Positions 44,172-64,000 of a stretch of DNA of 64,000 nucleotides are shown in pieces; within the stretch, counting starts at the first letter, position 1, and every line of letters begins with the position of its first letter. The position numbers and the translations under genes were made by a program. The DNA is from Noviherbaspirillum saxi (lineage in GTDB: Bacteria; Pseudomonadota; Gammaproteobacteria; Burkholderiales; Burkholderiaceae_D), in contig NZ_QYUO01000003.1 in assembly GCF_003591035.1 (NCBI RefSeq), forward strand, positions 806,001 through 870,000. The letters are read 5' to 3'. The notes below the pieces were generated by a model. It was not told the origin of the DNA, did not search any database, and worked only from the letters and a program-made list of their open reading frames with translations.

Positions 44172-44200
44172 TTGACTGAGATCTTTTTTGGATGCAGAAT
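44172..44200 (+). promoter_or_regulatory. Promoter of the hydrolase/lignostilbene dioxygenase operon, shared type
   Basis: TTGACT, 17 bases, CAGAAT. The surrounding CTAATTGACTGA and ATGAGGACAT recur at identical spacing ahead of the Rieske gene (57879). Confidence 0.65.
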
Positions 44201-44237
44201 GAGGACATAATACGAATGCATCCGGAGACAATTTCTC

Positions 44238-45116
44238 ATGCAACCTCATCTGCGTCAAGCGTTGGCCGCATTGGGCCGCGCTATCACTCCAGAGCTTATC
44301 GGAGGCACGTCCGCCTTGATGGCACCCCACGCGCCGCGTCCTCAGGCGGATGCGTGCACCGTGCTCCGCGACCAAAGCTACGGCCCTCACGACCGTCATC
44401 GCCTGGATATATTTGTGCCGAACGGGGCGCCGCACGCGCGGCCCGTGGTGCTGTTCGTGCACGGCGGTGGCTTTACCATGGGGCAGAAGGGCGGCCCTGA
44501 TGACGTTTTTTATAACCATATCGGCGCCTGGGCTGTAGCACAGGGCTGGGTTGGCGCGACAATGAATTATCGACTCGCGCCGGACCATGTTTGGCCTGCT
44601 GGTGCTGATGACGTCACCTTGGCGGCCCGCTGGTTGCAGCAGCACGCACATTCCTGGTGTGGTGATGCGCCCGCCGTGGTGCTCATGGGACAGTCCGCTG
44701 GCGCTGCACACGTGGCCGGTTGCCTCGCGCGGTGGCCAGCGCAACAGCCTCGACCGAGCGGAGCGATTCTGCTCAGTGGATTGTATGACTTAAGTACGCT
44801 GCGCCACAGCGAGCGGGAACGCCTTTACTACGGCACGGACAGCAGTCTGTTCGCCGAGCGTTCGAGCTTGCCGAGACTGCTGGCCGGCGACTGGAACTGC
44901 CTGTATACCGTGTCCGAACTGGACCCGGCGGAATTCCAGCAGCAGGCAGCGCAGGTCGTGGCCGCCTCCATGGAGCGAACTGGCCGATGGCCGGAGATGA
45001 TTTATCTGAGCGGCCACAATCATTTATCCAGTGTGCAACATATTGGCGCTCCACACGATACGCTGGGGCCGGTGCTGGCTGAGTTCGTTGGCCGTATCAC
45101 CGCACGCGTCGGCTGA
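44238..45116 (+). CDS. Alpha/beta hydrolase (HSL/carboxylesterase type), paralogue of the one at 3312
   Basis: A 292-residue hydrolase with HGGG (75-78), GQSAG (Ser153), SELDP (Asp229) and GHNHLSSV (His near 260). It is aligned residue by residue with the hydrolase at 3312. It heads a rightward operon and precedes the lignostilbene-type dioxygenase by 129 bases. Release of a phenolic from an ester before oxidative cleavage would suit the context (inference). Confidence 0.87.
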   Translation: MQPHLRQALAALGRAITPELIGGTSALMAPHAPRPQADACTVLRDQSYGPHDRHRLDIFVPNGAPHARPVVLFVHGGGFTMGQKGGPDDVFYNHIGAWAVAQGWVGATMNYRLAPDHVWPAGADDVTLAARWLQQHAHSWCGDAPAVVLMGQSAGAAHVAGCLARWPAQQPRPSGAILLSGLYDLSTLRHSERERLYYGTDSSLFAERSSLPRLLAGDWNCLYTVSELDPAEFQQQAAQVVAASMERTGRWPEMIYLSGHNHLSSVQHIGAPHDTLGPVLAEFVGRITARVG

Positions 45117-45245
45117 GGTGCGTATGTGGACGCGGCATACGTCATCCTCCCAAGCCAAGGCCGTTGCGCCCAAGGCGCGCAGCCGCCAATTGGCTTCCGC
45201 CAAGTCTCCTGATCGATTCACCTTCCAACATCACTAGGAGTTCCC

Positions 45246-46643
45246 ATGAGTGAACCATTTCACGCCGTACAAAGCTTTTACGGTACCGAAACCCCATTGC
45301 GCTTCGAGGCCGACGTGCACGACTGCGAAGTGATCGGCCGTATTCCGGCCGAGCTTGAGGGCACGCTGTACCGCGCTGGTCCCGATACGCAGTTCCCCAC
45401 TCTTTCGGCCGATACCATCGTCAACGGCGATGGCATAGTATCTTCGTTCGACTTTCGCGATGGACACGTCGCGTTCAAATGCCGCTATGTCAAGACCGAG
45501 CGCTTTCTGAAGGAGCGTGCGGCGAGAAGCAGGCTGTATGGTGCTTACCGGAATCAGCATACGGACGCGCCGGAAACGCGCGGCACTGACCGGGATAACA
45601 CTGCGAACACGACTGCCTTCTTCCATGCAGGGCGCCTGCTCGCGTTGCGCGAGGATTCGCACCCGCACCAGATAGATCCCGATACGCTGGAAACCCTGCC
45701 CAAGTGGGACTTCGCCGGCCGACTCAAGGGAACTGCGCTCACCGCGCATCCTAAGATCGATCCCGTCACGGGCGAGTGGTGGTCGTACGGCTTCTACTGC
45801 CGCGGCACCCTGGACGCCGACATGGCATTGCAGGTGATCGACGCAAAGGGCGACCTGGTGCGCGAGGAATTTTTCCGCTCGCCGTACGCCGGCCTGGCGC
45901 ATGATTTCGGCGTCACGCGAGAGCACGTCATCTTTGCCGTCATGCCGCTCACGACAGACCCAGCGCGCATCGCGGCGGGCGGCGACTTCTACGCCTACGA
46001 TCCGGACCTGCCTTCACTGTGGGGCATTATGCGTCGCGACGCGAGCGTGGATACGATCCGCTGGTTCAAGCTCCACGAATGTATGAGCGGCCACATCATG
46101 AACGCGTACACCGAAGGCGATGTGGTCCACATCGACGCGACCATCAGCCCGGGCAGCGCTTTCCCGTTCTTTAATGATGTCCACGGCAATAAGGTTGACC
46201 CGGCTCGTGGTATCCCGCTGATCACCCGCTTGAGCTTCGATCTTTCCAGCGCCGACGATTACGTGGTCCGCACGCCTTTCCCCGGCGCGATGGGTGAAAT
46301 GCCGCGCTGCGATCCGCGCTACGTGATGCAACCCTACCGCTGGGGGTTTATTAAAACCCGCGACGGCATCGGCCGGCTGGACTGGAAGACGCGCGAACTG
46401 GTGGAACACTTGACGCCAGGTGGAAGTGCGCAGGAGCCCGTCTTTGTGCCGCGCCGCGCCGACAGCATGGAGGGCGACGGCTTCCTGCTGAGCGTCGTCA
46501 ATAAGCCGGCGGAAGGCTGCGCTGAGCTCTATGTACTTGATGCGCAACACATGGAGGCACCGCCGCTGGCACGAGTTCGATTGCCGTTTAAACAGCCGAT
46601 GGCTTTCCACGGCAACTTTGTTCCGCGGGCGGATCGGAAATGA
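45246..46643 (+). CDS. Carotenoid-cleavage-family dioxygenase, lignostilbene dioxygenase type
   Basis: A 465-residue non-heme iron protein. Four His ligands of the seven-bladed propeller can be placed: His168 (LTAHPKIDP), His219 (GLAHDFGVT), His283 (SGHIMNAY) and His455 (AFHGNFVP). The spacing is that of bacterial lignostilbene-alpha,beta-dioxygenases. Such enzymes split the central double bond of hydroxystilbenes into two benzaldehydes, for example vanillin. TAGGAG lies ahead of the ATG. A broken copy exists at 3042. Substrate identity is inferred from the methoxy-aromatic genes that follow. Confidence 0.9.
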   Translation: MSEPFHAVQSFYGTETPLRFEADVHDCEVIGRIPAELEGTLYRAGPDTQFPTLSADTIVNGDGIVSSFDFRDGHVAFKCRYVKTERFLKERAARSRLYGAYRNQHTDAPETRGTDRDNTANTTAFFHAGRLLALREDSHPHQIDPDTLETLPKWDFAGRLKGTALTAHPKIDPVTGEWWSYGFYCRGTLDADMALQVIDAKGDLVREEFFRSPYAGLAHDFGVTREHVIFAVMPLTTDPARIAAGGDFYAYDPDLPSLWGIMRRDASVDTIRWFKLHECMSGHIMNAYTEGDVVHIDATISPGSAFPFFNDVHGNKVDPARGIPLITRLSFDLSSADDYVVRTPFPGAMGEMPRCDPRYVMQPYRWGFIKTRDGIGRLDWKTRELVEHLTPGGSAQEPVFVPRRADSMEGDGFLLSVVNKPAEGCAELYVLDAQHMEAPPLARVRLPFKQPMAFHGNFVPRADRK

Positions 46644-46689
46644 GTCACTGACCTGCGGCGCTTTTCATAATAAAACAAGGAGACAGTTG

Positions 46690-48378
46690 ATGGAGACAGG
46701 ATACTTAGGGCAGCATGCACAGCGTGCTGAGGGCAAACAAGTAACGGGGCGCACCGTGCGTCATGCATTGTTGCTGCTAGCGTCGTTGAGCCCGCTGGCG
46801 CAGGCTGCGCCGTTGATTGATGATGCGGAATCCGGCCTAAAGGTGAATTGGGACAACACGGTCAAGTACACTGCCGCAGCGCGTGTGGGCGACCGTGACA
46901 GCGTGTTGACGGGCCCGATCAATCTCAATGATGGCGACAATAATTTTGGTCGCGGCCTGATTTCGAACCGGCTGGATTTTTTCACGGAGTTGGACGCCGT
47001 GTACCGCGACGTGGGGGCGCGCGTCAGCGCGGCGGGATGGTACGACTCCGTATATAACCGTCCCAATGACAACCCCGGTCCGCCCGGAGCATTCGTCAAT
47101 CATAGCTCGGCGCCCTACAATGAATTCACTGCGGCCACCCGCAAGCTGCACGGACGCAATGCCGAACTGATGGACGCGTTCTTGTTCGGAAAGTTGCGTC
47201 TTGGCGGCGGCGACTTGGCCGTTCGTCTGGGCCAGCATTCGCTGCTCTGGGGCGAAAGTCTTTTCTTTGCCGGGAACGCGATCGCCGGCGGGCAAATGCC
47301 CACCAACGTTGCCCGGTTGGTATCCGTGCCCAACTCGCAGGCGAAGGAGTTCGTGCTGCCGGTGCCGCAGGTTTCCTCGCAATGGCAATTGAGCGATGAC
47401 GTGTCGGTTGGCGCCTACTATCAATTCCGCTATCGCGCGAACCGACTGCCTGCGGTGGGCAGCTATTTTTCCCAATCCGATACCAACTTCGATGGCGCCG
47501 AGCGTTTGTTGTTGGGGCCGGTAGCTGCCGCGCCGCGTGGACCAGACATGGATCCCAAGGATAGCGGTCAGGGGGGAGTGCAACTGCGCTGGCGGATCGC
47601 CGACACGGACCTGGGCTTCTACGCACTGCGCTTCCATAGCAAGGGGTTCCAACAGGTCACCCGCCTAGCGCCTGGCGCTGCAGGACCGGTCCCGGCCAGC
47701 TATTACCTCACGCACCATGAAGGCATTCGCGCTTATGGCCTTAGCGCCAGCCATACGTTTGGCCAAGCCAATGTCGCTATCGAGGCGTCGGTGAGGCACA
47801 ACCAAGACCTGGCTAGCGCCGGCGCGGTGGACGCATCGGCGCTGGCCCCCGCTGGTGTGGTTCCTGCCAACAATAACCGGGGCAATCCGGCATACGCAGT
47901 GGGCAGGACCGCGCATGCGAACGTTTCGATGTTGTGGACCTTGCCGCATACCCCCCTGTTTGACGAAGCCAATCTGGTGGCGGAGGGCGCTTGGAACCGG
48001 GTCCTGAGCTGCCAGACGCAATGTGCGCGCATCGCGCCAACGGCGACACGTGACGCCGTGTCGTTCCGTCTGGTGCTGGAACCAATCTACCGGCAAGTAG
48101 TGCCCGGCCTGGACCTTGGTGTCCCGCTGGGTCTTGGTTTTACCCCGAAGGGGTCGCGTTCCATGGCGCTTGGTCCTGGCGGCTTGCCGGCTGAGAACGG
48201 CGGTGACGTGAGCATCGGAGTCAATGGTCTGTTCAGATCGGTTTGGAAATTCAACCTGAACTATACGCATTACTTCGGTCCGGTAGGCCCATTCCTTAAC
48301 AGTTCAAACACCTTCAGCTACAAACAAGGCTTGGCTGACCGCGACGTGATGGTGTTCACACTGACCCGCACTTTCTGA
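46690..48378 (+). CDS. DUF1302 outer-membrane-type protein
   Basis: About 562 residues from the ATG behind AAGGAGACAG. A signal peptide (VRHALLLLASLSPLAQA) is followed by the start typical of DUF1302 (VNWDNTVKYTAAARVGDRDS, NNFGRGLISNRLDFFTELDA). The middle shows RLGQHSLLWGESLFFAGNAI, and the protein ends in a strand closing with Phe (VFTLTRTF). Members are predicted outer-membrane barrels found in degradation clusters for hydrophobic compounds, usually next to DUF1329, as here. A role in substrate passage across the outer membrane is an inference. Confidence 0.85.
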   Translation: METGYLGQHAQRAEGKQVTGRTVRHALLLLASLSPLAQAAPLIDDAESGLKVNWDNTVKYTAAARVGDRDSVLTGPINLNDGDNNFGRGLISNRLDFFTELDAVYRDVGARVSAAGWYDSVYNRPNDNPGPPGAFVNHSSAPYNEFTAATRKLHGRNAELMDAFLFGKLRLGGGDLAVRLGQHSLLWGESLFFAGNAIAGGQMPTNVARLVSVPNSQAKEFVLPVPQVSSQWQLSDDVSVGAYYQFRYRANRLPAVGSYFSQSDTNFDGAERLLLGPVAAAPRGPDMDPKDSGQGGVQLRWRIADTDLGFYALRFHSKGFQQVTRLAPGAAGPVPASYYLTHHEGIRAYGLSASHTFGQANVAIEASVRHNQDLASAGAVDASALAPAGVVPANNNRGNPAYAVGRTAHANVSMLWTLPHTPLFDEANLVAEGAWNRVLSCQTQCARIAPTATRDAVSFRLVLEPIYRQVVPGLDLGVPLGLGFTPKGSRSMALGPGGLPAENGGDVSIGVNGLFRSVWKFNLNYTHYFGPVGPFLNSSNTFSYKQGLADRDVMVFTLTRTF

Positions 48379-48393
48379 TTGATGGAGACACAT

Positions 48394-49752
48394 ATGCATA
48401 CCCCACTGACTCTGCGTGCCCTGCTGCTGCTTTTGCCGCTGCTTGGCGCCACCACAGCACACGCCGCCACCACCCCTGAAGAAGCGGCCAAGCTCAAGAC
48501 TGAACTTATGCCGCTGGGCGGCGAACGGGCGGGCAACAAGGATGGCAGCATCCCCGCCTGGACCGGCGGCTACACAACTGCGATCCCCGGCGATAAGGCC
48601 GGCGGGCGCCGCGGGGATCCGTTCAAGAACGAGAAGCCGCTGTTCTCGATCACGGCACGCAACATGTCGCAGTACGAGGACAAGCTGAGCGACGGACAAA
48701 AGGCGTTGCTGAAGAAGGACGCCGATTACCGAATCGACGTATACAAGACGCATCGTACCGCTGCGGCGCCGCAAGCGGTATACGACAATACGTTCCGCAA
48801 TGCCACCCGTACCAAGCTGGTCGATGAAATGCCGAGCAATGCGTTCGGTGGCATTCCATTCCCGATACCGAAATCGGGCGCCGAGGTGATGTGGAATCAC
48901 ATGTTGCGCTGGCGCGGCGTTGCCGTGCAGATGAACACTCAGTCGTACCAGATGACAGCTGACGGTCGCAGCATCCTGACCAACATTAACAAAGGCGAAG
49001 TCCAGATGCCTTACTACTTCCAGGACAGTTCGCTGGAAGAATTCAGCAAGACCGGCGACTACTGGACCATTCGCGTCGTCAGCGAAGGCCCGCCCATCCG
49101 CTCGGGCGAGGCCATGGTCGGGCGTCGTCAGTTTGACGGCGACAAGGACCAAGGCTGGATTTACCTGACGGGCCAGCGCCGTGTGCGCAAGCTTCCCAAT
49201 ACTTGCTGCGACACCCCACATCCGTCGACGATGGGTCTGATGACTTTTGACGAGATCGAATCATGGTCGGGCCGCCTGGATCGCTTCGAATGGAAACTGG
49301 CGGGCAAGCGCGAGCTCTACATTCCTTACAACGGCAATCGCTTGCTGCAGCCGACCAGTGAAACCGAGGTGCTCGGAAAGGGCTATCTGAATCCAGACCA
49401 TGTGCGTTGGGAGCTGCACCGGGTGTGGGTGGTTGACGCGGTGCTGCGCGATGGACGACGCCATGTGGCGCCGAAGTCACGCTACTATTGTGACGAGGAT
49501 ACATGGCTGTGCGTTCTGGGCGACCGCTGGGATGCAAAAGGGCAGCTTTGGAAAACGGTATGGACCCAGACCATAGTCGCCCCGGATTTGCCAGGTACCG
49601 TCGGCGGCGCATACGGCTATACCGATCTGATCGCCGGCAATGGCTTCGCGGGTCAGCTGATGAACACCAAGGATGCGCAGATGCCGATCAAGCCGCGTTT
49701 CCAGAGCAGCGTGTTTACTCCTGACTCCATGACTGGCGACAGTGTGCGCTGA
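48394..49752 (+). CDS. DUF1329 periplasmic/outer-membrane-associated protein
   Basis: About 452 residues with signal peptide LLLLLPLLGATTAHAAT. Family marks are NKDGSIPAWTGGYT, YRIDVYKTHRTAAAP, GQRRVRKLPNTCCDTPHPST and a Trp-rich C-terminal half. The start at 48394 has GGAG seven bases ahead; an ATG pair at 48379-48382 directly after the DUF1302 stop is possible. DUF1329 proteins resemble LolB/OMP-associated lipoprotein folds and travel with DUF1302, YCF48-like and RND genes. The whole set is present here. Confidence 0.85.
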   Translation: MHTPLTLRALLLLLPLLGATTAHAATTPEEAAKLKTELMPLGGERAGNKDGSIPAWTGGYTTAIPGDKAGGRRGDPFKNEKPLFSITARNMSQYEDKLSDGQKALLKKDADYRIDVYKTHRTAAAPQAVYDNTFRNATRTKLVDEMPSNAFGGIPFPIPKSGAEVMWNHMLRWRGVAVQMNTQSYQMTADGRSILTNINKGEVQMPYYFQDSSLEEFSKTGDYWTIRVVSEGPPIRSGEAMVGRRQFDGDKDQGWIYLTGQRRVRKLPNTCCDTPHPSTMGLMTFDEIESWSGRLDRFEWKLAGKRELYIPYNGNRLLQPTSETEVLGKGYLNPDHVRWELHRVWVVDAVLRDGRRHVAPKSRYYCDEDTWLCVLGDRWDAKGQLWKTVWTQTIVAPDLPGTVGGAYGYTDLIAGNGFAGQLMNTKDAQMPIKPRFQSSVFTPDSMTGDSVR

Positions 49753-49757
49753 CCGCT

Positions 49758-50879
49758 ATGGCCAAGTTTTCAATTAGTATGCCCAGCGGCCCGGCGCCGC
49801 TGGCCGCCCGCCGCCGCTTGTGCGCAGCATTGTTGCTCTCTGCCTTGGTGGCTGGGCACGGGCTTGCAAGCGCTCCCACGGCGGCGCCTGTGGGAGATGC
49901 CTTGGACCGCGCGGCCTTGCAGGCGCGCCAACCAAGTCGGGTCGTGCTGCTCGATGCGGCCTACGCGGGCGACACGGTGGTCGCGGTGGGCGAGCGTGGT
50001 CTTATCGTACGTTCCGCAGACGAGGGGCGCAGCTGGCAGCAGGCCGTCGTGCCAGCCAGCGCGACGCTGACCGCAGTTAGTTTCCAGGACGAAAAGCATG
50101 GTCTGGCGGTGGGACATGGGGGGTTGGTGCTCGCCACGGAGGATGCGGGGCGCAGTTGGCAGAAACGGATGGACGGACGTCAAATCGCCCAGCTCATGCT
50201 GGCCTCGGCCGAGCGATCGGGCCAAGAGCGCGCGTTGGCCCAGGCCCGGCAATTGGTTGCGGACGGCCCGGACAAGCCGCTGTTTGCACTGCTCCAGCTG
50301 GATGGACGGCGCATGTTGGCTGTCGGCGCCTACAACATCGTACTGCGAAGCGAAGACGGCGGCCGTAGCTGGACAGTGCCCGACGCGCCGCTGGACAACC
50401 CCCAGGCCTCGCACATCTACGCAGCTCGCGCCCGCGGCACGCGTGTGCTCTTGGCTGGGGAGCAAGGGCTGATCCTGCTGTCGGAGGATGGTGGCAAGAA
50501 CTTCCGACGACTGCCAGCGCCCTACCGTGGCAGCTTCTTTACAGCCGAAATCACCGCGGACGGTGGCATTCTGGTTGCGGGCCTGCGCGGTAACGTCTGG
50601 CACTCGCCGGACGGCGGGGCGCACTGGCACGTCAGGCGCACCTCGTCGCAGGCAACGGTAACCCATTCAAGCCTGCTGGGCGATGAGCCGCTGTTGTCGA
50701 CGCTGTCCGGGCAGCTGTTGCGCCGCCAGGACGACGCCTTGATACCGTTGCTGGGCACTCCACTCCCATCCATTAATGCCATTCTGCCTCTGCGCTCTGG
50801 CGGTGTGCTGGCATTGACTGGTTCGGGCGCCATTGCGCTACCCGCTACCGCTTTTCAGAATTTCGGAACCACCAGATGA
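49758..50879 (+). CDS. YCF48/BNR-repeat periplasmic protein
   Basis: A 373-residue protein with a long Arg-rich signal region (LAARRRLCAALLLSALVAGH) and repeated sialidase-like turns: SADEGRSWQQAVV, TEDAGRSWQKRM, SEDGGRSWTVPD, SEDGGKNFRRLP and SPDGGAHWHVRR. This gives a beta-propeller as in photosystem assembly factor YCF48 relatives. The end overlaps the RND start by four bases. In this four-gene module it probably acts as a periplasmic accessory to the RND protein; its exact role is unknown. Confidence 0.85.
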   Translation: MAKFSISMPSGPAPLAARRRLCAALLLSALVAGHGLASAPTAAPVGDALDRAALQARQPSRVVLLDAAYAGDTVVAVGERGLIVRSADEGRSWQQAVVPASATLTAVSFQDEKHGLAVGHGGLVLATEDAGRSWQKRMDGRQIAQLMLASAERSGQERALAQARQLVADGPDKPLFALLQLDGRRMLAVGAYNIVLRSEDGGRSWTVPDAPLDNPQASHIYAARARGTRVLLAGEQGLILLSEDGGKNFRRLPAPYRGSFFTAEITADGGILVAGLRGNVWHSPDGGAHWHVRRTSSQATVTHSSLLGDEPLLSTLSGQLLRRQDDALIPLLGTPLPSINAILPLRSGGVLALTGSGAIALPATAFQNFGTTR

Positions 50880-54629: not shown

Positions 54630-55502
54630 ATGAACACAAATCCTGAGTACATTATTCGGCTGGCATGCGCCAATCGACCGGGTATCGTAGCTGCCGTTGC
54701 CACCGCGCTATTCGAGGGCGGTTTCAATATCCTTGATTCGCAGCAGTTCGACGATACCGTCAGCGACCGCTTTTTCGTGCGCATTCATTTCGAGCAGACG
54801 CGCGCACACGCGGAGATCGACATCGGCACCTTGATGGCCCCTGTTGCCGATCGCTTCGGCATGCAGTACTCGGTGCATGACTGCCGCAAGCTGAGCAGGG
54901 TATTGCTGATGGTCTCGAAGTTCGACCATTGCCTCGCCGATCTGCTGTACCGTTGGCGTACAGGCGAGCTGGCGATGGATGTCGTCGGCATCATATCCAA
55001 TCATCCGCGCGACACCTATGCTCACCTGAACTTGGGCGACATTCCCTTTCACCACCTGCCGATAGATAAAAACGCCCCTAACGGCAAAGTCGAGCAGGAG
55101 CAGCGCGTTTGGCAGGCGGTCCAGTCGAGTGGTGCCGAGCTGGTTGTGCTGGCCCGTTATATGCAAATCCTGTCTGATGATCTGTCTGCCAAACTGGCTG
55201 GCAAATGCATCAACATCCACCACAGCTTTTTGCCTGGCTTCAAGGGCGCCAAGCCGTATCACCAGGCGCATGAACGCGGGGTCAAGTTGATCGGCGCAAC
55301 TGCACACTACGTCACCGCCGATCTGGACGAAGGTCCCATCATCGAGCAGGATGTGGAGCGCATCAGCCATCGCGATACGCCAGAGCAGTTGGTGCGCAGG
55401 GGGCGTGACATCGAGCGCCGTGTACTTGCCAGTGCAGTGCGCTATCACCTGGAGGGTAGGGTGCTGCTCAACGGCCAAAAAACAGTGGTGTTCCCGGGAT
55501 GA
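54630..55502 (+). CDS. purU: Formyltetrahydrofolate deformylase
   Basis: A 290-residue PurU with an N-terminal ACT domain ([20 protein letters not shown]) and a formyltransferase-fold domain with the catalytic [19 protein letters not shown] and [19 protein letters not shown]. It hydrolyses 10-formyl-THF to formate and THF. Placed after the O-demethylase and overlapping folD (ATGA), it would regenerate free THF for further demethylation, a different job from its usual role in purine/glycine balance. Confidence 0.94.
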
Positions 55503-56398
55503 GTGCGGCAATGATAGATGGCAAAGCCCACGCTGCGGCGCTGCGCGCTCAGGTCGCAGCGGCTGGCGCAAGATTCCGCGAAGAGCTTGGCAGGCCGGCA
55601 GGTCTGGCCGTTGTTCTGGTTGGTGATGATGCGGCCAGTGGGGTTTATGTGGCGTCCAAGGCGCGTGCCACGCTTGAGGCGGGTATGGAAAGCTTCACGC
55701 ACCGCTTACCTGCCAGCGCCACACAGGCGGAGGTCCTCGAGCTGTTGGCCAGTCTGAACCAGAATGAAGCAGTGGATGGGATTCTGGTGCAATTGCCTTT
55801 GCCGGCGCAGATAGATGAGACGGCGGTAATCGATGCGATTCACCCGGACAAGGATGTGGACGGCTTCCACGTCCTAAATGCTGGTCGTCTCGCAATAGGG
55901 CAGAACGGTCTGGTGCCTTGCACGCCGCTTGGCTGCCTGATGCTGCTGCGGGCCTGCCGAGGATCGCTCGCCGGCCTGCGGGCGGTCGTGGTGGGGCGCT
56001 CGAACATCGTCGGCAAGCCGATGGCGCGGCTATTGTTGGCGCAGGACTGCACGGTTACAGTGGCACATTCACGCACTCGCGATTTGCAGTCCGTGGTGCA
56101 TGACGCGGACATACTGGTAGTCGCGATCGGCCGGCCCCTGTCCATACCTGGGGCCTGGATCAAGCCCGGCGCCACGGTGATCGATGTGGGTATCAATCGC
56201 ATCGACGATCCCACCGGGTCAGGCAAGAGCCGGTTAGTCGGTGACGTCGACTTCGATTCTGCGGCATTAGTGGCTGGTGCTATCACCCCGGTCCCTGGCG
56301 GGGTTGGACCCATGACTATTGCTGTGCTGCTTCGCAACACCGTTGTGGCTGCGCGCCGCAGAGCGGGGCTGTCGCCCGACGCCATGCTGAGCGTATAG
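55499..56398 (+). CDS. folD: Methylenetetrahydrofolate dehydrogenase/cyclohydrolase
   Basis: A 299-residue bifunctional FolD. Motifs: [12 protein letters not shown] (catalytic Lys), [31 protein letters not shown] (NADP site) and [15 protein letters not shown]. It converts 5,10-methylene-THF to 10-formyl-THF. With PurU it can oxidise the C1 unit to formate. The step from methyl-THF to methylene-THF (MetF) is not encoded in the window. This is presumably a pathway-specific paralogue of a housekeeping folD. Confidence 0.94.
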
Positions 56399-56592: not shown

Positions 56593-57708
56593 TTACGCCG
56601 GTTCCTTTTGCCGGTGTGCGCGATTGTTCAATTCGTTAAGCGCGTCACGATGCTCGACCACGTAGGTATGCGCCGGGGGGAGTGGCCAGGAGGGCAAGGC
56701 CACCACTTGCGCGAACGCCGCGAGAGGGGCTTTCACCTTGTCGCCGTGGTGCAGAATAAGCTGGCCTAGAAGGCGCTGCAGGTGCGCAATGTCGTCGTCG
56801 CTAAAGCCGCGCACGAACTCAGTCGCTATGGCAGCCAGTTTCGGTTCCACTGCCAGCAGGACATCGCGGCCCATCGGAGTTGCATAGTAGCGCTTGCGGC
56901 TGGCAGAGGTACCTGATTTGGCGTTGATCAGGCCCTTCTCGCGCAACAGGCCCACAACCAGCGTCGCATTGGTTATTTCGTAGCCCAACAGCTTGCGAAT
57001 GCTTGGTTCGCCGATGCCCGGATGGCAAAACACAACGTGAAGCGCGCAGAACTGGCGCAACGTCAATCCGAAAAGGCCCGCTTCGTTGGACAGATGCGCC
57101 TCGACGGCCTGTAAGCAGCGCCGCATGAGCCAAGAGGCAGTGTGTGGCGCTGGCTGCTCGTCGGCCAGGCGTTCCAGCAATGTCATCAGCTTCTCGCGTT
57201 GGTCGGGGCGCATTGCTTCAAACAGGATGTCTTCAGCCTCCAGCTGTTTGGTTTTCGCAATCGCGAGCGCAGCTTGGCCGCTTTCCGTGATCATCACGCG
57301 TTTGCGACGTTTATCCTCCGGATCGGTGTGTCGGTCAACCAGGTGTTGCTTAAGCAGGTTGGTCAACACAAGTCCGGCCGTGGATTTGTCGGTGCCTGCC
57401 AGGTTGGAGAGCTCAGTCTGCATCATGTGGCCATGCTCATCAAGCAATCGCAATATCTGCAGCTGTGCCGGTGTAATTGGCGTCGTACTTTGCTGCTTTG
57501 CAAACAGCGCTGTAGCAATCTGGTAGGCACGCTGAATTTGGAAGGGTACGCGCGAATACAGATATGCCAACGCCTCCAGGTTGAGCGTGATGTTGTGGCC
57601 GACTGCGTTGGTTATTGTGGAATCCAATCGTGTCACGTCCTTTTTCAAGCGTGATGGAGACAGCAAGGGGAGACCCCTCCAAAGAGTTAAAAGAGGAATT
57701 ATATACAT
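56593..57708 (-). CDS. Fused double MarR-family regulator
   Basis: A 371-residue protein with two MarR winged-helix domains in one chain. The first (about 50-165) has TPAQLQILRLLDEHGHMMQT, TDKSTAGLVLTNLLKQHLVD and wing DPEDKRRKRVMIT. The second (about 190-310) has LTLRQFCALHVVFCHPGIGE, ATLVVGLLREKGLIN and wing SASRKRYYATPMG. Normal MarR proteins are about 150 residues and dimerise, so this could act as a built-in pseudo-dimer. The first ~25 residues may be an over-long start. It is divergent from the Rieske gene and convergent with folD, so it is the natural candidate regulator of the methoxy-aromatic island. Confidence 0.88.
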   Translation of the reverse strand: MYIIPLLTLWRGLPLLSPSRLKKDVTRLDSTITNAVGHNITLNLEALAYLYSRVPFQIQRAYQIATALFAKQQSTTPITPAQLQILRLLDEHGHMMQTELSNLAGTDKSTAGLVLTNLLKQHLVDRHTDPEDKRRKRVMITESGQAALAIAKTKQLEAEDILFEAMRPDQREKLMTLLERLADEQPAPHTASWLMRRCLQAVEAHLSNEAGLFGLTLRQFCALHVVFCHPGIGEPSIRKLLGYEITNATLVVGLLREKGLINAKSGTSASRKRYYATPMGRDVLLAVEPKLAAIATEFVRGFSDDDIAHLQRLLGQLILHHGDKVKAPLAAFAQVVALPSWPLPPAHTYVVEHRDALNELNNRAHRQKEPA

Positions 57709-57878
57709 ATTTAAAAATGCGCAAAAAGAAAGGATATCTTATTAAACTGTTCGCACAGCAAAATCGGCAAATAGTTGTCATAGGCATATCAAATGATTAT
57801 CGTATTTACATGTGTATGGCAGAGGAGTCATGCTTCGTTGCCTTTGTGTTAAATTATATTCTGCGGATATCAAACTAA
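57709..57878. other. AT-rich divergent promoter region (MarR side)
   Basis: The region has runs such as ATTATATACATATTTAAAAA and AAATTATATTC. GGATATCTTATTAAAC here resembles GGATATCTTACCAATC near 2955 upstream of the paralogous locus, a possible regulator site. No gene. Confidence 0.4.
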
Positions 57879-57907
57879 TTGACTGAATGAATTTTGCGCC
57901 CTAACAT
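57879..57907 (+). promoter_or_regulatory. Promoter of the Rieske oxygenase gene, shared type
   Basis: TTGACT (57879-57884), 17 bases, TAACAT (57902-57907). CTAATTGACTGA and ATGAGGACAT occur at the same distances as ahead of the hydrolase/dioxygenase operon at 44.2 kb. Confidence 0.7.
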
Positions 57908-57914
57908 GAGGACA

Positions 57915-57929
57915 TCTTACTTAGTAAGA
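57915..57929. promoter_or_regulatory. Palindrome just downstream of the -10 box, operator candidate
   Basis: TCTTACTTAGTAAGA is a 15-base palindrome around one central base. It lies where a bound repressor would block the promoter at 57879. A half-site TCTTACT also lies at 44163 just ahead of the sister promoter. Confidence 0.6.
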
Positions 57930-58048: not shown

Positions 58049-59101
58049 ATGTATGTCAAGAACTGCTGGTACGTCGCTGCGTGGAACTACGAAGTGACCG
58101 GGAAGGCGCTGTTCAAGTGTTCAATCATCAATCAGCCCATCGTCATTTATGTCAAGGACGATGGGCAATACGTGGCCATGGAAGACCGCTGTTGCCATCG
58201 TGCGCTTCCGCTGTCGATGGGGCGCCTGGAAGGAAACGACTTGCGATGCATGTATCACGGACTGAAGTTCGCGCCAACGGGCCAGTGCGTGGAGATGCCG
58301 GGCCAAGACCGCATACCACCCGGCGCATGCGTGCGCACTTTCCCTGTGGTGGAAGCCCATAGCTGGGTTTGGGTATGGATGGGCGATCCGGATAAAGCCG
58401 ATCGTGAGCTGATCCCCGAGTGCATCGCGCTTGAGACGCCCGGCCTGCAACACCGGTCCGGCCATATTGAGTACGACGCCGACTATCAGCTTATCAACGA
58501 CAATTTGCTGGACTTCTCTCATCTGGGCTATGTGCATTCGGCGTCGTTCGGTACGAGCGAGGATTGGGCTTATACGCGGCCCAAGATTGTTCGTTTGGAG
58601 CGTGGCGTACGTGTGCAGCGATGGGTCACCAATCAGGCTTCCCGCATCGCAGGTCCGGAGAACAAAGTAGACATTTGGGGAACCTACGACTATATGCTGC
58701 CCGGCGTGATGATCATGAACATGCGCGTTACTCCCGCGGGTAGTGCACAGCTGAACAATATGGAGCCGCCTGACCTGACTAAAACGGCGACGTTGTTCAG
58801 CCAGTTTTCCTGCCAAGCAGTCACACCAATCAGCGATACCCGCAGCCGCTATTCCTTTTCCGTGCTGACATCGGATGAAGACGCGGAGCGTGGATTGCTG
58901 GACGCATTCTGGGCGAATACGCGGCAGGCTTTCGATGAGGACCGTGCGGTGATCGAGGCGCAAGCCAAGTCGATGGCAATGGACCCAGCTCGCAAGCTGA
59001 TCCCGTCGGTCTATGATTCGGCACTGGGACAGTTCCGCTGGATGATCGAGAAGCAGGCGCGTGAAGAGTCGTCAGCATCAGCGGATGGCGTGCCTGGATG
59101 A
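58049..59101 (+). CDS. Rieske aromatic oxygenase (VanA/dicamba-demethylase-like), no reductase adjacent
   Basis: A 350-residue Rieske oxygenase with [2Fe-2S] ligands Cys48-x-His50 (EDRCCHRALPLSMG) and Cys67-x2-His70 (CMYHGLKF). The mononuclear iron motif is NDNLLDFSHLGYVH (Asp155, His158, His163). It belongs to the VanA-like group that demethylates methoxybenzoates, but it is clearly different from vanA at 39091. A GGGAG site precedes the ATG. It lies between the double MarR and a chemoreceptor. Likely target is a second methoxy-aromatic acid such as syringate or veratrate (inference). It must borrow a reductase, possibly VanB. Confidence 0.9.
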   Translation: MYVKNCWYVAAWNYEVTGKALFKCSIINQPIVIYVKDDGQYVAMEDRCCHRALPLSMGRLEGNDLRCMYHGLKFAPTGQCVEMPGQDRIPPGACVRTFPVVEAHSWVWVWMGDPDKADRELIPECIALETPGLQHRSGHIEYDADYQLINDNLLDFSHLGYVHSASFGTSEDWAYTRPKIVRLERGVRVQRWVTNQASRIAGPENKVDIWGTYDYMLPGVMIMNMRVTPAGSAQLNNMEPPDLTKTATLFSQFSCQAVTPISDTRSRYSFSVLTSDEDAERGLLDAFWANTRQAFDEDRAVIEAQAKSMAMDPARKLIPSVYDSALGQFRWMIEKQAREESSASADGVPG

Positions 59102-59390
59102 AGGTCAGTGCCGGGAAGTCGGCCCGACATGTCAATGTAGACCAGGATAGGCGCCCAAATTGCCGAGCGACACGCCCCTGAGCCGGCACGCGGAATGGCG
59201 CGAGCATGGCCAGAGCCGAGTGATGCCGTTGATTTGCCATGCAGGGCCCAGCTCACAAAACGAAATCCGTGTTTGCGCGCCGGCCACATTGCGACAGCCC
59301 TGCGGACTGCGAGCGCCTGCCAAAACGTTCGATGTTGGTGTCGTGCGCCAGGCGGAGACGGATGAATTTTTCAACATAGGACAAGTTGCC

Positions 59391-61016
59391 ATGGCATTTA
59401 GCAATATGAAAGTGGGCACGCGGCTGACTGCGGGCTTTGCATGCGTATTACTGTTGCTGATTGTTGTCACGATGCTCGGCTTGCAGCAAATGACGCAGCT
59501 ACAGGCAAGGCTGGAGCAGATCACTACCGCTAATAACGTCAAGGTAAAACTGGCGACGGCGATGCGCGATAGTGTATTCGAACGCATGGTGGCCTTGCGC
59601 AATCTGGCATTGGGCTCATCCGCGCCGGAAATGCACGATGAGATGCAGAGCATCCGACGCGAGGCAGGCAAATACAAAGAAGCCGAGTTAAAACTGAAGC
59701 AAATCATTGCCGCCTCCTCGGCTGGTGCGACAGAAGAACGGATGCTATTGGAAGGGCTCAATCGCTTCGAAACCATTGCATTGTCCTTGAGCGATAAGGC
59801 TGCCGATCTGGCCATGGCGTCGCAGATTGACCAAGCATACACGGTAACCCGAGAACTCGCGCCTGCGCAACGCAAGTGGATGTCGCAACTGGAGGCGCTC
59901 ATCGCATTCGAGGGGCGACAGAGCGAGCAGTCCACCATTGACGCACGTTCGGCGTTTACGCGCGCGCGTTTCCTTATGTTAGCGATCGGACTCCTGGCAG
60001 TCGTGATTGGCATGCTGATCGCGATTTTGATTACCCGAAAGATGTTGCGTCAGCTTGGCGGGGAGCCTGAATACGCTGCACGAATCGTTGGTCAACTGGC
60101 ATCCGGCGATTTGACGGCACAGATCGATATCAGGCCGTCTGACAGCGGCAGCCTATTGCTCGCAATGCGATCAATGCGGGAAAACCTGGCTTCGACGATC
60201 GGTAGAGCGCGTGCCGATAGCAGCAGGTTCGTCGCAGTGTCCAGCGAAATATGCGCGGGTAATGCAAATATCGCTTCCCGTACCGAGCAGCAGGCATGCG
60301 AGCTGGAGAGTACTGTGGAGCGCATGGAGCGGTTGACAGCGACGGTTCAACACAATCTTGAATCTGTACATCATGCCAACCAGCTGGCGGCATCTGCATC
60401 AGCCGTTGCGCTGATGGGCAGTGCCGAAGTTTTGCGCGTAGTTGAGACGATGAACTCGATCGAGACGTCCGCCCGCCGTATTGTCGACATCATCGGTGTT
60501 ATAGACGGCATAGTCTTTCAGACCAATATACTCGCGTTGAATGCCTCAGTGGAGGCAGCCCGCGCTGGCGAGCAGGGACGGGGCTTCGCCGTTGTCGCGA
60601 GCGAAGTCCGCAGTCTCGCGCAACGGGCGGCGACGTCGGCGAAGGAGATCAAAGCGCTGATTGATGATGCGGTGGAAAAAGTCGATGCGGGCGGCATCCT
60701 TGCGGACAACGCGGGCGCCACGATGAACAAGCTGGCTGAAAGCATACAACGTGTGACCAAGATTATGCAGGAGATCACTGAGGCGAGCAGCGTGCAAGGG
60801 GCCGAGATCGCGCAGGTGAATCAAACGATCGCGCAAATGGAGCGCATGACACAACAGAATGCCGCACTGGTGGAGCGCGCTGCGGCAGTGACCGAGAGTA
60901 TGCAGCAACGGGCGCATGGTTTAGCTCAGATCTTGCAAGTCTTTAAGGTTGCTGATGCGGCGACCGAATCTGACGGGGACCACCATCCCTCTGTATTGAG
61001 CTTGCCGCGCGCCTAG
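59391..61016 (+). CDS. Methyl-accepting chemotaxis protein
   Basis: A 541-residue receptor from the ATG opening MAFSNMKVGTRLTAGFACVL; an upstream in-frame ATG at 59160 would add an unlikely tail. Transmembrane helices lie at about 12-32 and 193-216, with a four-helix-bundle sensor between them. HAMP follows, then the signalling hairpin with [20 protein letters not shown]. No C-terminal WxxF tether is present, unlike the receptor at 12305. The position between the Rieske oxygenase and aldehyde dehydrogenases suggests chemotaxis toward a lignin aromatic. Confidence 0.92.
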   Translation: MAFSNMKVGTRLTAGFACVLLLLIVVTMLGLQQMTQLQARLEQITTANNVKVKLATAMRDSVFERMVALRNLALGSSAPEMHDEMQSIRREAGKYKEAELKLKQIIAASSAGATEERMLLEGLNRFETIALSLSDKAADLAMASQIDQAYTVTRELAPAQRKWMSQLEALIAFEGRQSEQSTIDARSAFTRARFLMLAIGLLAVVIGMLIAILITRKMLRQLGGEPEYAARIVGQLASGDLTAQIDIRPSDSGSLLLAMRSMRENLASTIGRARADSSRFVAVSSEICAGNANIASRTEQQACELESTVERMERLTATVQHNLESVHHANQLAASASAVALMGSAEVLRVVETMNSIETSARRIVDIIGVIDGIVFQTNILALNASVEAARAGEQGRGFAVVASEVRSLAQRAATSAKEIKALIDDAVEKVDAGGILADNAGATMNKLAESIQRVTKIMQEITEASSVQGAEIAQVNQTIAQMERMTQQNAALVERAAAVTESMQQRAHGLAQILQVFKVADAATESDGDHHPSVLSLPRA

Positions 61017-61232
61017 CTGTTGCAATGTGTGGTTGCGTGGCGGATGTGGCTCGTTGCCGAAAACAACTGGCAAGCAGCCACATGTGCGTCCCTGACGCCA
61101 TGTGGCAGCATCAGCTCCCACGAGCTTGCAATGGATCGCCAGCGGGCTTCCACTCCGGTGCTCGCGGGTAGCCGAACAGGAAAACGGCGGCATGTCTTGA
61201 CACGGCCGCATGGCTTGAATAAAGTAAATCTG

Positions 61233-61252
61233 CTTTATATAAACTATATTTC
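61233..61252. promoter_or_regulatory. Third copy of the TTTATATAAACTA motif
   Basis: CTTTATATAAACTATATTTC, 14 bases before the aldehyde dehydrogenase start codon and matching the core of the motif at 26527. Its location next to the ribosome site would suit a repressor site. Confidence 0.5.
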
Positions 61253-61265
61253 TTTAAGGATAAAT

Positions 61266-62774
61266 ATGAATCCTGCTATCATCGAACAACACTTCTTGCG
61301 GTTGACCTCTGGGTTCCTGGCGCACCCACTGAGATTGTTCATCGGCGGCGAATGGATGGAGGCGGCCAATGGGCAAACTATCGCTGCTGAAGACCCGGCG
61401 ACTGGCGCCGTGATTGCGCATGTCGCCGCGGGCAGTACGCCGGATGTCGACCGCGCAGTGCAGGCGGCGCGTCGCGCGTTCGACGGGGGGGCATGGCCGG
61501 CGCTGTCGCCTGCGGACAGGTCGCGCCTGATGCTGCGGCTGGCAGACTTGATCGAGTCGAACGCTGAGGAGTTGGCCGTGCTGGAATGCCTCGACAACGG
61601 CAAGTCGGCCATGTTGGCCCGCGTGATCGACGTGGCGGCAGCGGTTGAATGCCTGCGCTACCATGCCGGCTGGGCGACGAAGCTGCGGGGCGAAACCATT
61701 GCGCTGTCGCTCCCCGGCGACTGGCATGCCTATACCAGCCGCGAGCCGGTTGGCGTTGTTGGCCAGATCGTGCCGTGGAACTTCCCATTGCTGATGGCGG
61801 TTGGAAAGATCGCTCCCGCGTTGGCCGCCGGCTGCACCTTGGTGCTCAAGCCGGCCGAACAAACCCCTCTTTCGGCCGTCAGGCTTGGGCAGCTGGTCGA
61901 GCAAGCGGGCTTTCCCCCCGGCGTGTTCAATCTCGTTACCGGCTTCGGCGACAGTGCCGGCAAGGCATTGGTCGAGCACCGGGGCGTCGACAAGATTTCG
62001 TTTACTGGCTCGACTTCTGTGGGCAAAGCCATCGTCGCTACGGCGGCACAGGACATGAAGCGCGTCACCCTTGAACTGGGCGGCAAGTCGCCGGTGATTG
62101 TGTTCGCGGATGCTGATGTCGAGCGCGCTGTGGAAGGCGTGGCGAATGGGATTTTTTACAATTCAGGACAGGTGTGCGCGGCCGGCTCGCGTCTCTATGT
62201 CGACAGGAAAATCTATGACCGTGTCGTCGAGGGAGTCGCGGCCCGCGCGGCACAGATGAACATCGGCTCGGGACTTGACTTGACCTCGCACATCGGCCCG
62301 CTGATTTCGCGCGAGCAGCGTGACCGGGTTGCCGCATATGTGGCCTCGGGTTGCGCCGATGGTGCTGAGCTGGTTACCGGAGGCCGCTTGCTGGACGGTG
62401 AGGGCTACTTCATGCAGCCCACGGTGCTTTCCAAGACCAACCGCGACATGCGTGTGGTGCAGGAGGAGATCTTTGGTCCGGTGCTGTGCGCGATGCCATT
62501 CCAGAGTGACGAGCTGGCGCGGATCCTGGGCGATGCGAACGACTCGCGCTACGGGCTGGCTGCTAGCGTCTGGACGCAGGACGTCGGCCTCGCGCACCGG
62601 ACCGCGCGGATGCTGCGCGCTGGCCATGTCTCAGTTAACGCGACCTTAGCGATGGACATGGCGTTGCCCTTCGGCGGCTTCAAGCAGTCTGGGTGGGGGC
62701 GTGAGGGGGGAGCGGCCGGGGTCGAGGCCTATACCGAATTGAAGTCGGTTGCCGTTGCCCTTGGCGGGCGATAG
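61266..62774 (+). CDS. NAD-dependent aldehyde dehydrogenase (benzaldehyde/phenylacetaldehyde dehydrogenase-like)
   Basis: A 502-residue enzyme from the ATG behind AAGGA. Motifs are GQIVPWNFPLLMAVGKIAPA, LVLKPAEQTPLSAVRL, FTGSTSVGKAI, the general base in LELGGKSPVIV and the catalytic Cys in NSGQVCAAGSRLY. In this island it would oxidise the aldehydes released by stilbene cleavage (vanillin, 4-hydroxybenzaldehyde or syringaldehyde) to acids for O-demethylation. It is a different subfamily from the dehydrogenases at 27635 and 62834. Confidence 0.88.
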   Translation: MNPAIIEQHFLRLTSGFLAHPLRLFIGGEWMEAANGQTIAAEDPATGAVIAHVAAGSTPDVDRAVQAARRAFDGGAWPALSPADRSRLMLRLADLIESNAEELAVLECLDNGKSAMLARVIDVAAAVECLRYHAGWATKLRGETIALSLPGDWHAYTSREPVGVVGQIVPWNFPLLMAVGKIAPALAAGCTLVLKPAEQTPLSAVRLGQLVEQAGFPPGVFNLVTGFGDSAGKALVEHRGVDKISFTGSTSVGKAIVATAAQDMKRVTLELGGKSPVIVFADADVERAVEGVANGIFYNSGQVCAAGSRLYVDRKIYDRVVEGVAARAAQMNIGSGLDLTSHIGPLISREQRDRVAAYVASGCADGAELVTGGRLLDGEGYFMQPTVLSKTNRDMRVVQEEIFGPVLCAMPFQSDELARILGDANDSRYGLAASVWTQDVGLAHRTARMLRAGHVSVNATLAMDMALPFGGFKQSGWGREGGAAGVEAYTELKSVAVALGGR

Positions 62775-62833
62775 ACAAAATTGCTGTTTCAGTAGGTGCT
62801 GCGGCACCAAAAATGTATAAATCGAGGAATCAA

Positions 62834-64000
62834 ATGGATTACCCCCAGATTGCAATGTATATAGATGGCGAATGGGTCGGCGCCGAGGGCCGCGATTCGC
62901 AACCCGTCTTGAACCCCGCCACTGGCGAGCAGATAGCCGTGCTGCCGCATGCCGGGCAGGCAGACCTGGAGCGCGCGCTCGAGTCGGCGCGTCGTGGTTT
63001 TCTGCTTTGGCGCGCCACGCCGGCGCAGGAGCGCGCCGTTGTGCTGCGCCGCGCTGCCGACTGGTTGCGCGCCCGGGTCGACGATGTGGCCCGGATTGCC
63101 ACCACGGAGCAGGGCAAACCGCTGGCTGAAACGCGCATCGAACTCATGGCTGCGGCCGACTGTTTGGAATGGTACGGGGAAGAGGGCCGGCGCGCCTATG
63201 GCCGCGTACTGCCGCGCCCTCCTGGCAGCAGGACCCTGGTGGTCAAGGAACCGATAGGTCCGGTGGCCGCTTTTGCGCCGTGGAATTTTCCACTTGGTAA
63301 TCCAGCGCGGAAGCTGGGTGCGGCGATCGGCGCGGGCTGCTCGGTCATCCTGAAACCTCCCGAGGAGGCTCCAGCCTCAGCCATGATGGTGGCACGCGCC
63401 TTGATCGAGTCCGGCTTGCCGGTCGGCGTCATGAACATCGTGTACGGCGTGCCCGATACCATTTCGCGATACTTGCTGCGCTCGCCGGTGATCCGCAAAC
63501 TCTCGTTCACCGGCTCCACCGCGGTGGGCAAACACTTGATGAACCTGGCATCGGAACGGGGCATCCGCACGACAATGGAACTGGGCGGGCATGCGCCGGT
63601 TCTGGTGTTCGACGATGCCGATATCGAGCAGGCACTGAGTCTAACGGTCGCCAGTAAGTACCGCAACGCGGGACAGGTTTGCGTTTCGCCGACCAGGTTC
63701 TACATACAGGAGGGTGTATACGAGCGTTTTGTTGCCGAATTCTCTCGGCGGGCTTCTGCGTTGCAGGTCGGGAACGGCTTGCATGAGGGGACGCGAATGG
63801 GGCCCATGGCGCATCCCCGCCGGCTCGGCGCGATGGAATCGCTGATCGCTGATGCCCGGGCGGCGGGGGCGAAGTTGGAGACGGGCGGCGAGCAGATCGA
63901 CCGGGCTGGTTATTTCTGGCAGCCAACGGTGCTCAGCGATGTACCGATACACGCGCGGGTAATGAGCGAGGAGCCGTTCGGCCCCGTCGCTGTCATGTCG
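62834..64000 (+). CDS. NAD(P)-dependent aldehyde dehydrogenase, truncated by the window end
   Basis: The first 389 codons are visible. Start MYIDGEWVGAEGRDS (slightly inside), then FAPWNFPLGNPARKLGAAIG, ILKPPEEAPASAMM, LELGG-type base in MELGGHAPVLVFDD and the Cys in NAGQVCVSPTRFYI. It is of the same semialdehyde-dehydrogenase-like subgroup as the gene in the ferulate block. It lies 59 bases after the previous dehydrogenase, so probably the same transcript. The C-terminal ~95 residues are beyond the window. Confidence 0.88.
   Translation, partial: MDYPQIAMYIDGEWVGAEGRDSQPVLNPATGEQIAVLPHAGQADLERALESARRGFLLWRATPAQERAVVLRRAADWLRARVDDVARIATTEQGKPLAETRIELMAAADCLEWYGEEGRRAYGRVLPRPPGSRTLVVKEPIGPVAAFAPWNFPLGNPARKLGAAIGAGCSVILKPPEEAPASAMMVARALIESGLPVGVMNIVYGVPDTISRYLLRSPVIRKLSFTGSTAVGKHLMNLASERGIRTTMELGGHAPVLVFDDADIEQALSLTVASKYRNAGQVCVSPTRFYIQEGVYERFVAEFSRRASALQVGNGLHEGTRMGPMAHPRRLGAMESLIADARAAGAKLETGGEQIDRAGYFWQPTVLSDVPIHARVMSEEPFGPVAVMS

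Follow-up and report, generated by a model that had tools for sequence, protein, structure and literature searches.

A 64,000-nucleotide stretch of the Noviherbaspirillum saxi genome (NZ_QYUO01000003.1, positions 806,001-870,000; termed the window, whose own numbering is used throughout) harbours a set of genes around a stilbene-cleaving-type dioxygenase and a GcvT-fold folate-dependent enzyme, which together may degrade a hydrophobic methylenedioxyphenyl compound. Mechanically called open reading frames (ORFs) and profile searches yield nine co-directional genes on the forward strand (44238-56398), coding for a hydrolase, the dioxygenase, DUF1302, DUF1329, YCF48-like and RND proteins, the GcvT-type enzyme, PurU and FolD. 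The intergenic gaps within this operon measure at most 129 bp, and 4-bp overlaps occur at YCF48/RND and purU/folD. A double MarR gene follows folD on the opposite strand, and genes for a Rieske oxygenase, a methyl-accepting chemotaxis protein and two aldehyde dehydrogenases (ALDHs) come next on the forward strand (Table 1). An earlier interpretation made from the letters and their ORFs (termed the sequence-only reading) had described a self-contained island for lignin dimers and methoxy aromatics. Every gene it named was found, in the order and on the strand it gave, and its proposal of a single catabolic operon for C=C cleavage, hydrophobic transport, aldehyde oxidation and folate-dependent one-carbon recycling is supported, the arrangement being conserved in Massilia cavernae. 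As a whole that interpretation is partly supported: the residues of the two central enzymes point elsewhere. The mechanical ORF for the DUF1302 protein overlaps the dioxygenase gene by 113 bp; this overlap was rejected as real, given a ribosome-binding-site-like stretch and an ATG at 46690, 46 bp after the dioxygenase gene. Neither Rfam at the gathering threshold nor a tRNA scan gave a match.

Table 1. Features of the window
Feature	Position	Strand	Remarks
Operator-like site before decayed dioxygenase copy	2952..2963	+	
N-terminal remnant of a second, decayed dioxygenase	3042..3227	+	52% identity over residues 1-62; internal stop
Second hydrolase	3312..4226	+	47% identical to the 44238-45116 product
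Main operon promoter/operator	44036..44213	+	operator-like repeats 44036-44047, 44157-44168, 44202-44213
Main operon promoter elements	-35-like TTGAC at 44172; ATGAGGACAT at 44199	+	
Alpha/beta hydrolase (BD-FAE/Abhydrolase_3), presumed esterase/lactonase	44238..45116	+	profile match
Carotenoid-oxygenase family, stilbene-cleaving type, Arg-135 clade	45246..46643	+	V59, Y101, N121, R135; four His kept
DUF1302 outer-membrane barrel, AmeA-like	46690..48378	+	start re-assigned
DUF1329 LolA-like periplasmic protein, AmeB-like	48382..49752	+	
YCF48/BNR-repeat protein, AmeC-like	49758..50879	+	hydrophobic stretch at N-terminus
RND/MMPL transporter, HAE3 type, AmeD-like	50876..53284	+	12 hydrophobic stretches
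GcvT-fold folate-dependent enzyme, presumed methylenetransferase (demethylenase)	53327..54601	+	SesA-type residues
purU, 10-formyltetrahydrofolate deformylase	54630..55502	+	above NCBIfam cut-off
folD, methylenetetrahydrofolate dehydrogenase/cyclohydrolase	55499..56398	+	above a NCBIfam cut-off
Double MarR regulator, presumed regulator of three promoters	56593..57708	-	second half matches weakly
Divergent promoter/operator region	57731..57920	+	operator-like sites 57731-57742, 57909-57920; promoter at 57879
Rieske oxygenase	58049..59101	+	VanA_C domain
Methyl-accepting chemotaxis protein	59160..61016	+	four-helix-bundle sensor
Aldehyde dehydrogenase, presumed aryl-aldehyde oxidation	61020..62774	+	
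Second aldehyde dehydrogenase	62813..64000	+	continues beyond window end

The folate-dependent enzyme carries the domains of the aminomethyltransferase fold (PF01571, 119 bits; PF08669, 34 bits; profile search), and its best solved-structure match is LigM (5x1i). It scores far under the NCBIfam cut-offs for both DesA (278 of 800 bits) and LigM (246 of 580 bits). In SesA, which acts on lignans such as sesamin, the residues R81, H82, R100, R179 and H225 are expected to protonate the methylenedioxy ring, and D95, E189 and Y221 contact the folate (PMC5547118, in part; here and below, “in part” marks a paper of which a portion was accessible). The counterparts in the window protein, identified solely through their spacing and an alignment with LigM, are K78, H79, R97, R175 and H221 together with E92, E185 and A217, and the spacing equals that of SesA save one residue between R100 and R179. 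Among 33 aligned sequences, the window protein included, K78, H79, R175, E185 and H221 do not vary, and R97 is kept in at least 90%. LigM displays Q, Y, R and T at positions 79, 97, 175 and 221, so that its pattern reads KQDYREYT as opposed to KHERREAH in the window protein; its Tyr at position 217 is presumably the catalytic Tyr247. H79 and H221 occur together in 182 of the 191 aligned rows of at least 40% identity (5 rows are gapped there), and Tyr217 occurs in 1.

A FastTree phylogeny of 91 sequences, from which exact duplicates and any sequence that covered under 300 query positions had been removed, set all 15 LigM-type sequences, LigM included, apart as one exact group (support 0.61), and likewise a third, Tyr-plus-His group (8 of 8, support 1.0); the window type was recovered as 65 sequences plus two others (support 0.69). 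The third GcvT-like clan, with Tyr217 and His221, is found at loci L206 and L208, where its neighbours are a TetR regulator gene and one annotated as an SMR efflux transporter, and also at L225, L049, L065, L068, L071 and L205.

Methylenedioxy-ring opening is thus favoured because the active-site pattern is of the SesA type and, more weakly, because metF is absent from the operon; the enzyme is probably of the methylene-transferring kind. The sequence-only reading had instead assigned it to LigM-type demethylation of methoxy acids with formation of 5-methyltetrahydrofolate, downstream of a lignostilbene-type cleavage to vanillin-type aldehydes. That both enzymes belong to the matching superfamilies, and that the window also contains p-hydroxycinnamoyl-CoA hydratase/lyase and Rieske demethylase-like genes, speaks for such a pathway; the LigM pattern is missing, however, the SesA-type His/Arg/Arg/His pattern is in its place and the operon lacks metF. 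With the dioxygenase residues described below also at odds with it, we consider the methoxy pathway unlikely.

The folate genes of the neighbourhood bear on the same question. LigM-type enzymes generate 5-methyltetrahydrofolate, which needs MetF for re-entry into the folate pool, and a methylene transferase generates 5,10-methylenetetrahydrofolate, which is taken directly by FolD and PurU. The operon holds folD and purU and no metF, and the sole metF of the genome lies on another contig. Neighbours within 8 kb were surveyed at 64 named genome loci and at 16 plasmid loci hand-picked from the 30 matches listed. Of the 99 genes, 69 were of the window type (in seven of them position 97 is Lys or position 221 is Gln) and 14 of the LigM type; the 16 of neither type were excluded from the comparison (nine have Tyr217, eight of these also His221, and the others are fragments or partly aligned). 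LigM-type genes have metF nearby in 9 of 14 cases as compared to 1 of 69 for the window type, and the single window-type gene concerned (locus L195) shares its locus with a LigM-type gene beside metF. Where purU or folD is close by, metF is present as well for 6 of 7 LigM-type and 0 of 31 window-type genes. The contrast, which the plasmid loci alone supply, supports methylene transfer and is not decisive. Five of the 14 LigM-type genes, all in genome loci, lack metF within 8 kb; a metF partner is therefore no strict LigM feature, and its absence is no proof against the methoxy pathway.

The dioxygenase matches PF03055 with 386 bits and retains the four iron-binding histidines (H168, H219, H283, H455), and it stays under the NCBIfam cut-off for lignostilbene dioxygenase (446 of 800 bits). 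In LSD4 the substrate triad consists of F59, Y101 and K134, where F59 stacks on the 4-hydroxyaryl ring and K134 hydrogen-bonds to it (PMC8191317, in part). The window enzyme keeps Y101 and N121, and carries Val59 in place of F59 and Arg135 in place of K134. Among 189 aligned rows, Arg135 combined with Val, Ile, Leu or Thr at position 59 is found in all 126 rows of at least 50% identity, which include the window's own dioxygenase three times, and Arg135 in none of the 63 rows below 50%, including LsdA, LSD4 and the Pseudomonas brassicacearum enzyme; no row falls between 45 and 50% identity. The lignostilbene specificity assumed in the sequence-only reading is open to doubt, as the whole clade has other residues at two of the three positions that contact the substrate, and the loss of F59 and K134 in all 126 rows also counts against the methoxy pathway.

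At the order level a dioxygenase match was obtained in 35 of 399 genomes (E 1e-30), with at best 36% identity outside the own genome; at the genus level one 37% match appeared besides the own copy (15 genomes), and at the phylum level 20 of 398 genomes matched (E 1e-60, own included), three others having the Arg type. In the open-access literature searched, no paper was recognised as describing the characterisation of the Arg-135 clade. We tentatively propose, as an idea more apt to fail than to hold, that it forms a new class which would cleave the side-chain C=C of non-phenolic, methylenedioxy-capped arylalkenes, in breach of the 4-hydroxyl rule of stilbene-cleaving enzymes, and is coupled within the operon to folate-dependent ring opening; none of the papers found describes a piperonal-generating route with such coupling. 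Dioxygenases with V59 and K135, each with an ALDH gene close by, are encoded at L140 (pBAR1 of Sphingomonas bisphenolicum AO1) and L141 (a plasmid of P. putida YC-AE1), with a presumed role in bisphenol A breakdown.

The order of the two central reactions might also be the reverse: the folate enzyme would open the ring first, and the dioxygenase would then cleave a 3,4-dihydroxyaryl alkene, with Tyr101 and Arg135 holding the catechol. Known C=C-cleaving members of the family act primarily on 4-hydroxyaryl compounds (PMC12308385), and therefore cleavage may follow ring opening, or the substrate may be phenolic. The retained Y101 and N121 agree with the reverse order, as does the activity of SesA on lignans such as sesamin (PMC5547118, in part); PipA, by contrast, prefers piperonylate, a late intermediate (PMC12753220, in part). 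We judge the reverse order to be rather improbable.

The operon and the genes behind it share promoter and operator elements. The succession of TAATTGACTGA and ATGAGGACAT occurs at two places in the window, once before the hydrolase gene and once before the Rieske gene, and in none of 100 shuffles. TTGAC-N17-24-ATGAGGACAT has three exact places in the 6.5 Mb genome (reversed control: 0), of which the third is located 4.3 kb beyond the window end, approximately 430 bp upstream of a GMC oxidoreductase gene; the shorter ATGAGGACATNNTAC with one mismatch allowed adds two genomic sites elsewhere, as compared to one for the control. The operator-like motif GGAYATCNTAY is present four times in the window (0.22 expected), at 2953, before the decayed dioxygenase, at 44037 and at 57732/57910, and thus exclusively within three intergenic regions. 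In M. cavernae the hydrolase gene is preceded by the same promoter elements, and the motif with one mismatch gives five matches (1.15 expected), three before the hydrolase gene and two not. The common promoter and operator support the view that both halves of the island belong together, as the sequence-only reading had held. The extent it gave, 44172 to 64000, stands in that the genes lie there; the regulon also reaches outside, to the third promoter 4.3 kb past the window end and to the decayed copy at about 2.95-4.2 kb. An MFS-family gene from 4223 follows the second hydrolase gene, and the whole decayed-copy region spans 2952-5569.

The double MarR gene is divergent from one of these promoters, and its product is likely their regulator. 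Its best NCBIfam model is Saro_0803 (83 of 200 bits), presumably a resveratrol-responsive regulator, a resemblance that would suit the methoxy pathway.

The genes for DUF1302, DUF1329, COG4447/YCF48-like and RND proteins are arranged in the order of AmeABCD. The RND protein best matches the NCBIfam model HAE3 (136 of 352 bits) and contains 12 hydrophobic stretches; its affiliation with the AmeD lineage within HAE3 is putative. Castellaniella defragrans cells deleted for AmeABCD tolerate monoterpenes less well and, when de-energised, accumulate more Nile Red, a phenotype from which the authors propose export (PMC6394551, in part). In P. putida, PP_0765/0766 take part in Tween 20 use together with PP_2018/2019; DUF1302 and DUF1329 proteins are needed for it, and substrate transport has been proposed for them (PMC10866462, in part). 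The candidate view of the four-gene set as a module without described role was rejected on account of these two systems. The N. saxi genome has 17 DUF1329 genes; the 14 stretches that cover the other 16 hold nine further complete four-gene sets, which makes at least 10 with that of the window. The set is a common module, and its place beside one dioxygenase is therefore less remarkable than the sequence-only reading held. The novelty claimed for it applies in a narrower sense: the set had already been tied to degradation in print as AmeABCD, and its combination with dioxygenase and methylenetransferase was not found described. In four of the nine further sets a chemoreceptor gene directly follows the RND gene. 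An apparent link between Ame genes and folate enzyme in Pseudomonas taiwanensis (L054/L226) is weak, as 23 DUF1329 matches in 6.7 Mb imply a chance of about 7% per locus; the GcvT-like gene beside another cassette of this species (L225) is of the Tyr-plus-His kind.

The nearest named relative is M. cavernae (L032, 91% identity on the folate enzyme), where the genes for hydrolase, dioxygenase, four transporter proteins, folate enzyme, PurU, FolD and MarR follow in the same order to the contig end. Duganella sp. PWIR1 encodes a dioxygenase (81% identity) and a folate enzyme (88%), probably on one chromosome, and one 60,072-base contig may hold both as well (63% and 76%). Among 120 relatives searched (E 1e-40), the folate enzyme was found in the own genome only. 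The neighbourhood counts speak in part against the sequence-only reading: the whole combination is present in one of 64 named folate-enzyme loci, that of M. cavernae, and Ame genes or the folate enzyme appear in none of 36 dioxygenase neighbourhoods from other genomes or plasmids (E 1e-6; L125-L133 and L135-L161, with L135, L153 and L160 short), three of which belong to the window's dioxygenase clade.

Parallel arrangements exist in other bacteria. In Streptomyces (L074), genes for a dioxygenase, a hydrolase, an ALDH, an amidohydrolase, a window-type folate enzyme and PurU lie on one strand with gaps of at most 41 bp or small overlaps. The dioxygenase is 29% identical to that of the window and of another residue type, and the combination may have arisen separately; L094 resembles this locus in its matches to dioxygenase, hydrolase, ALDH, folate enzyme and purU. 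In Rhizobium lusitanum the gene for the folate enzyme is plasmid-borne and near purU, a 2Fe-2S gene and two xanthine-dehydrogenase-family genes, the family to which the Burkholderia piperonal oxidase belongs (PMC5131310, in part), and in Maritimibacter it adjoins a GMC oxidoreductase gene whose product is 43% identical to that of the regulon. Of three loci with an Arg-type dioxygenase (L142, L143, L144), the first two, from genomes of the same phylum as that of the window, have a hydrolase homologue nearby and an ALDH-type match further off. One such match at L142 is an alcohol dehydrogenase region according to Pfam, and Pfam analysis of nine L142 genes and one L143 gene found alcohol dehydrogenase, ALDH and a TonB receptor, with no further clear pathway gene.

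What is directly seen is the gene content, the operon-like layout, the promoters in common, the residue patterns and the counts of neighbours; from these we infer the substrates and reactions, the regulator's role and the direction of transport. At the envelope an AmeABCD-like complex would deal with the hydrophobic compound, an ester or lactone would be opened by the hydrolase, and C=C cleavage by the Arg-type dioxygenase would yield a piperonal-type aldehyde, which the GMC oxidoreductase may also supply from an alcohol. ALDH would oxidise the aldehyde to a piperonylate-type acid, from which the GcvT-fold enzyme would transfer the ring CH2 to tetrahydrofolate, giving 5,10-methylenetetrahydrofolate and a catechol acid (protocatechuate). 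Formate release and the regeneration of tetrahydrofolate would then fall to FolD and PurU, and the ring would be taken by a protocatechuate 3,4-dioxygenase, whose beta subunit is encoded elsewhere in the genome (above the family cut-off). A search for LigA gave no match in this genome or in any control and carries no weight. Another methoxy group may be removed by the Rieske enzyme, and either the compound itself or what is made from it may be the signal for the chemoreceptor. We regard this proposal, a MarR-controlled regulon that degrades a hydrophobic methylenedioxyphenyl compound by C=C cleavage before ring opening and converts piperonylate-type acids to protocatechuate, as evenly poised between right and wrong. 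The substrate would be an isosafrole-, piperine- or methylenedioxystyryl-type plant aromatic, and we have little confidence in any particular natural substrate.

Besides the 4-hydroxyaryl preference of the dioxygenase family, several points weigh against the proposal. SesA R81 and Y221 are Lys and Ala in the window protein, although BrdA proteins also lack R81 and just two of them keep Y221 (PMC5547118, in part). The comparison with SesA runs through residue spacing and the alignment to LigM, and the published residue roles are themselves predictions (PMC5547118, in part). The metF contrast comes from the plasmids (LigM type 9 of 9, window type 1 of 5), as metF is found at genome loci for neither type (0 of 5 and 0 of 64); moreover, related strains were counted apart and many survey loci stop at contig ends. 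The Rieske enzyme hints at methoxy groups. Finally, the His/Arg/His type is very widespread, including haloarchaea and anaerobes, and must therefore serve diverse substrates. The folate enzyme might act on an unrelated one-carbon substrate, for instance a different CH2 donor or an N-methyl group, and lie beside the dioxygenase for historical reasons. The breadth of its clade, which extends to Candidatus Formimonas and haloarchaea, and the presence of a dioxygenase within 8 kb of only 3 of 69 window-type genes fit this view; the co-directional operon kept in M. cavernae, the analogous Streptomyces operon and the conserved promoter speak against it, and we consider it very unlikely.

Further genes for aromatic compounds are found in the rest of the window. 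A hydroxycinnamate-type cluster (22283-29654) codes for p-hydroxycinnamoyl-CoA hydratase/lyase (above cut-off), an NDP-forming-type CoA ligase, an acyl-CoA dehydrogenase, an ALDH and a MarR protein. The genes at 17234-21557 (FAD monooxygenase, double-cupin protein, FAH-type hydrolase, TctC-type receptor) would fit a 3-hydroxybenzoate/gentisate route. At 39091-41148 a Rieske oxygenase is encoded, whose best solved match is the dicamba O-demethylase DdmC, and a reductase gene adjoins.

If the proposal is true, a residue rule (His/Arg/His versus Tyr), with folate-gene neighbours as support, parts methylenedioxy-ring openers from O-demethylases. Both kinds of enzyme are called aminomethyltransferases in genomes, and the case would then show that a “LigM-like” annotation can mislead lignin-pathway predictions. 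Likewise, the Arg-135 clade would name C=C-cleaving dioxygenases with a pocket unlike that of the three lignostilbene enzymes compared. Piperonal and catechols are of practical interest as products of safrole-, sesamin- or piperine-type compounds, and the three-promoter regulon makes the proposal testable by a single induction experiment.

Among known systems, the methylenetransferases SesA (Sinomonas, sesamin), BrdA (berberine) and PipA (Rhodococcus ruber, piperonylate) share with the window enzyme the GcvT fold and a purU/folD context without metF, and SesA H82, R100, R179, H225 and E189 are matched by spacing; the window enzyme differs in its link with an Ame-type transporter and a dioxygenase that cleaves C=C bonds, and in the exchanges of R81 to Lys and Y221 to Ala. 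The LigM/DesA O-demethylases of Sphingobium SYK-6 belong to the same superfamily, yet the window enzyme lacks Tyr217 and Tyr97 of LigM, possesses His79 and His221, has no metF neighbour and remains far under their NCBIfam cut-offs. With the lignostilbene dioxygenases LsdA, LSD4 and P. brassicacearum LSD, the window dioxygenase has the fold, the four iron-binding histidines, Y101 and N121 in common, whereas all members of its clade have Arg for K134 and Val, Ile, Leu or Thr for F59. AmeABCD of C. defragrans comprises four genes in the same order, which likewise belong to an island that breaks down hydrophobic compounds; the likeness lies in gene types and order, and the context at the window locus is aromatic rather than monoterpene. 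The PipM/PipUVWX/PipA piperine cluster of R. ruber No. 14 is likewise inducible and converts a methylenedioxyphenyl compound via piperonylate with a methylenetransferase, PipA, which opens the methylenedioxy ring (PMC12753220, in part). That cluster differs in using an amidohydrolase and a beta-oxidation-like route, and the main text of the paper, as far as accessible, makes no mention of a dioxygenase, stilbene, carotenoid or transporter (PMC12753220, in part). No description of the dioxygenase, methylenetransferase and Ame combination was found in the open-access PMC literature searched; each enzyme family is known, and what appears new is their combination and the Arg-type dioxygenase clade.

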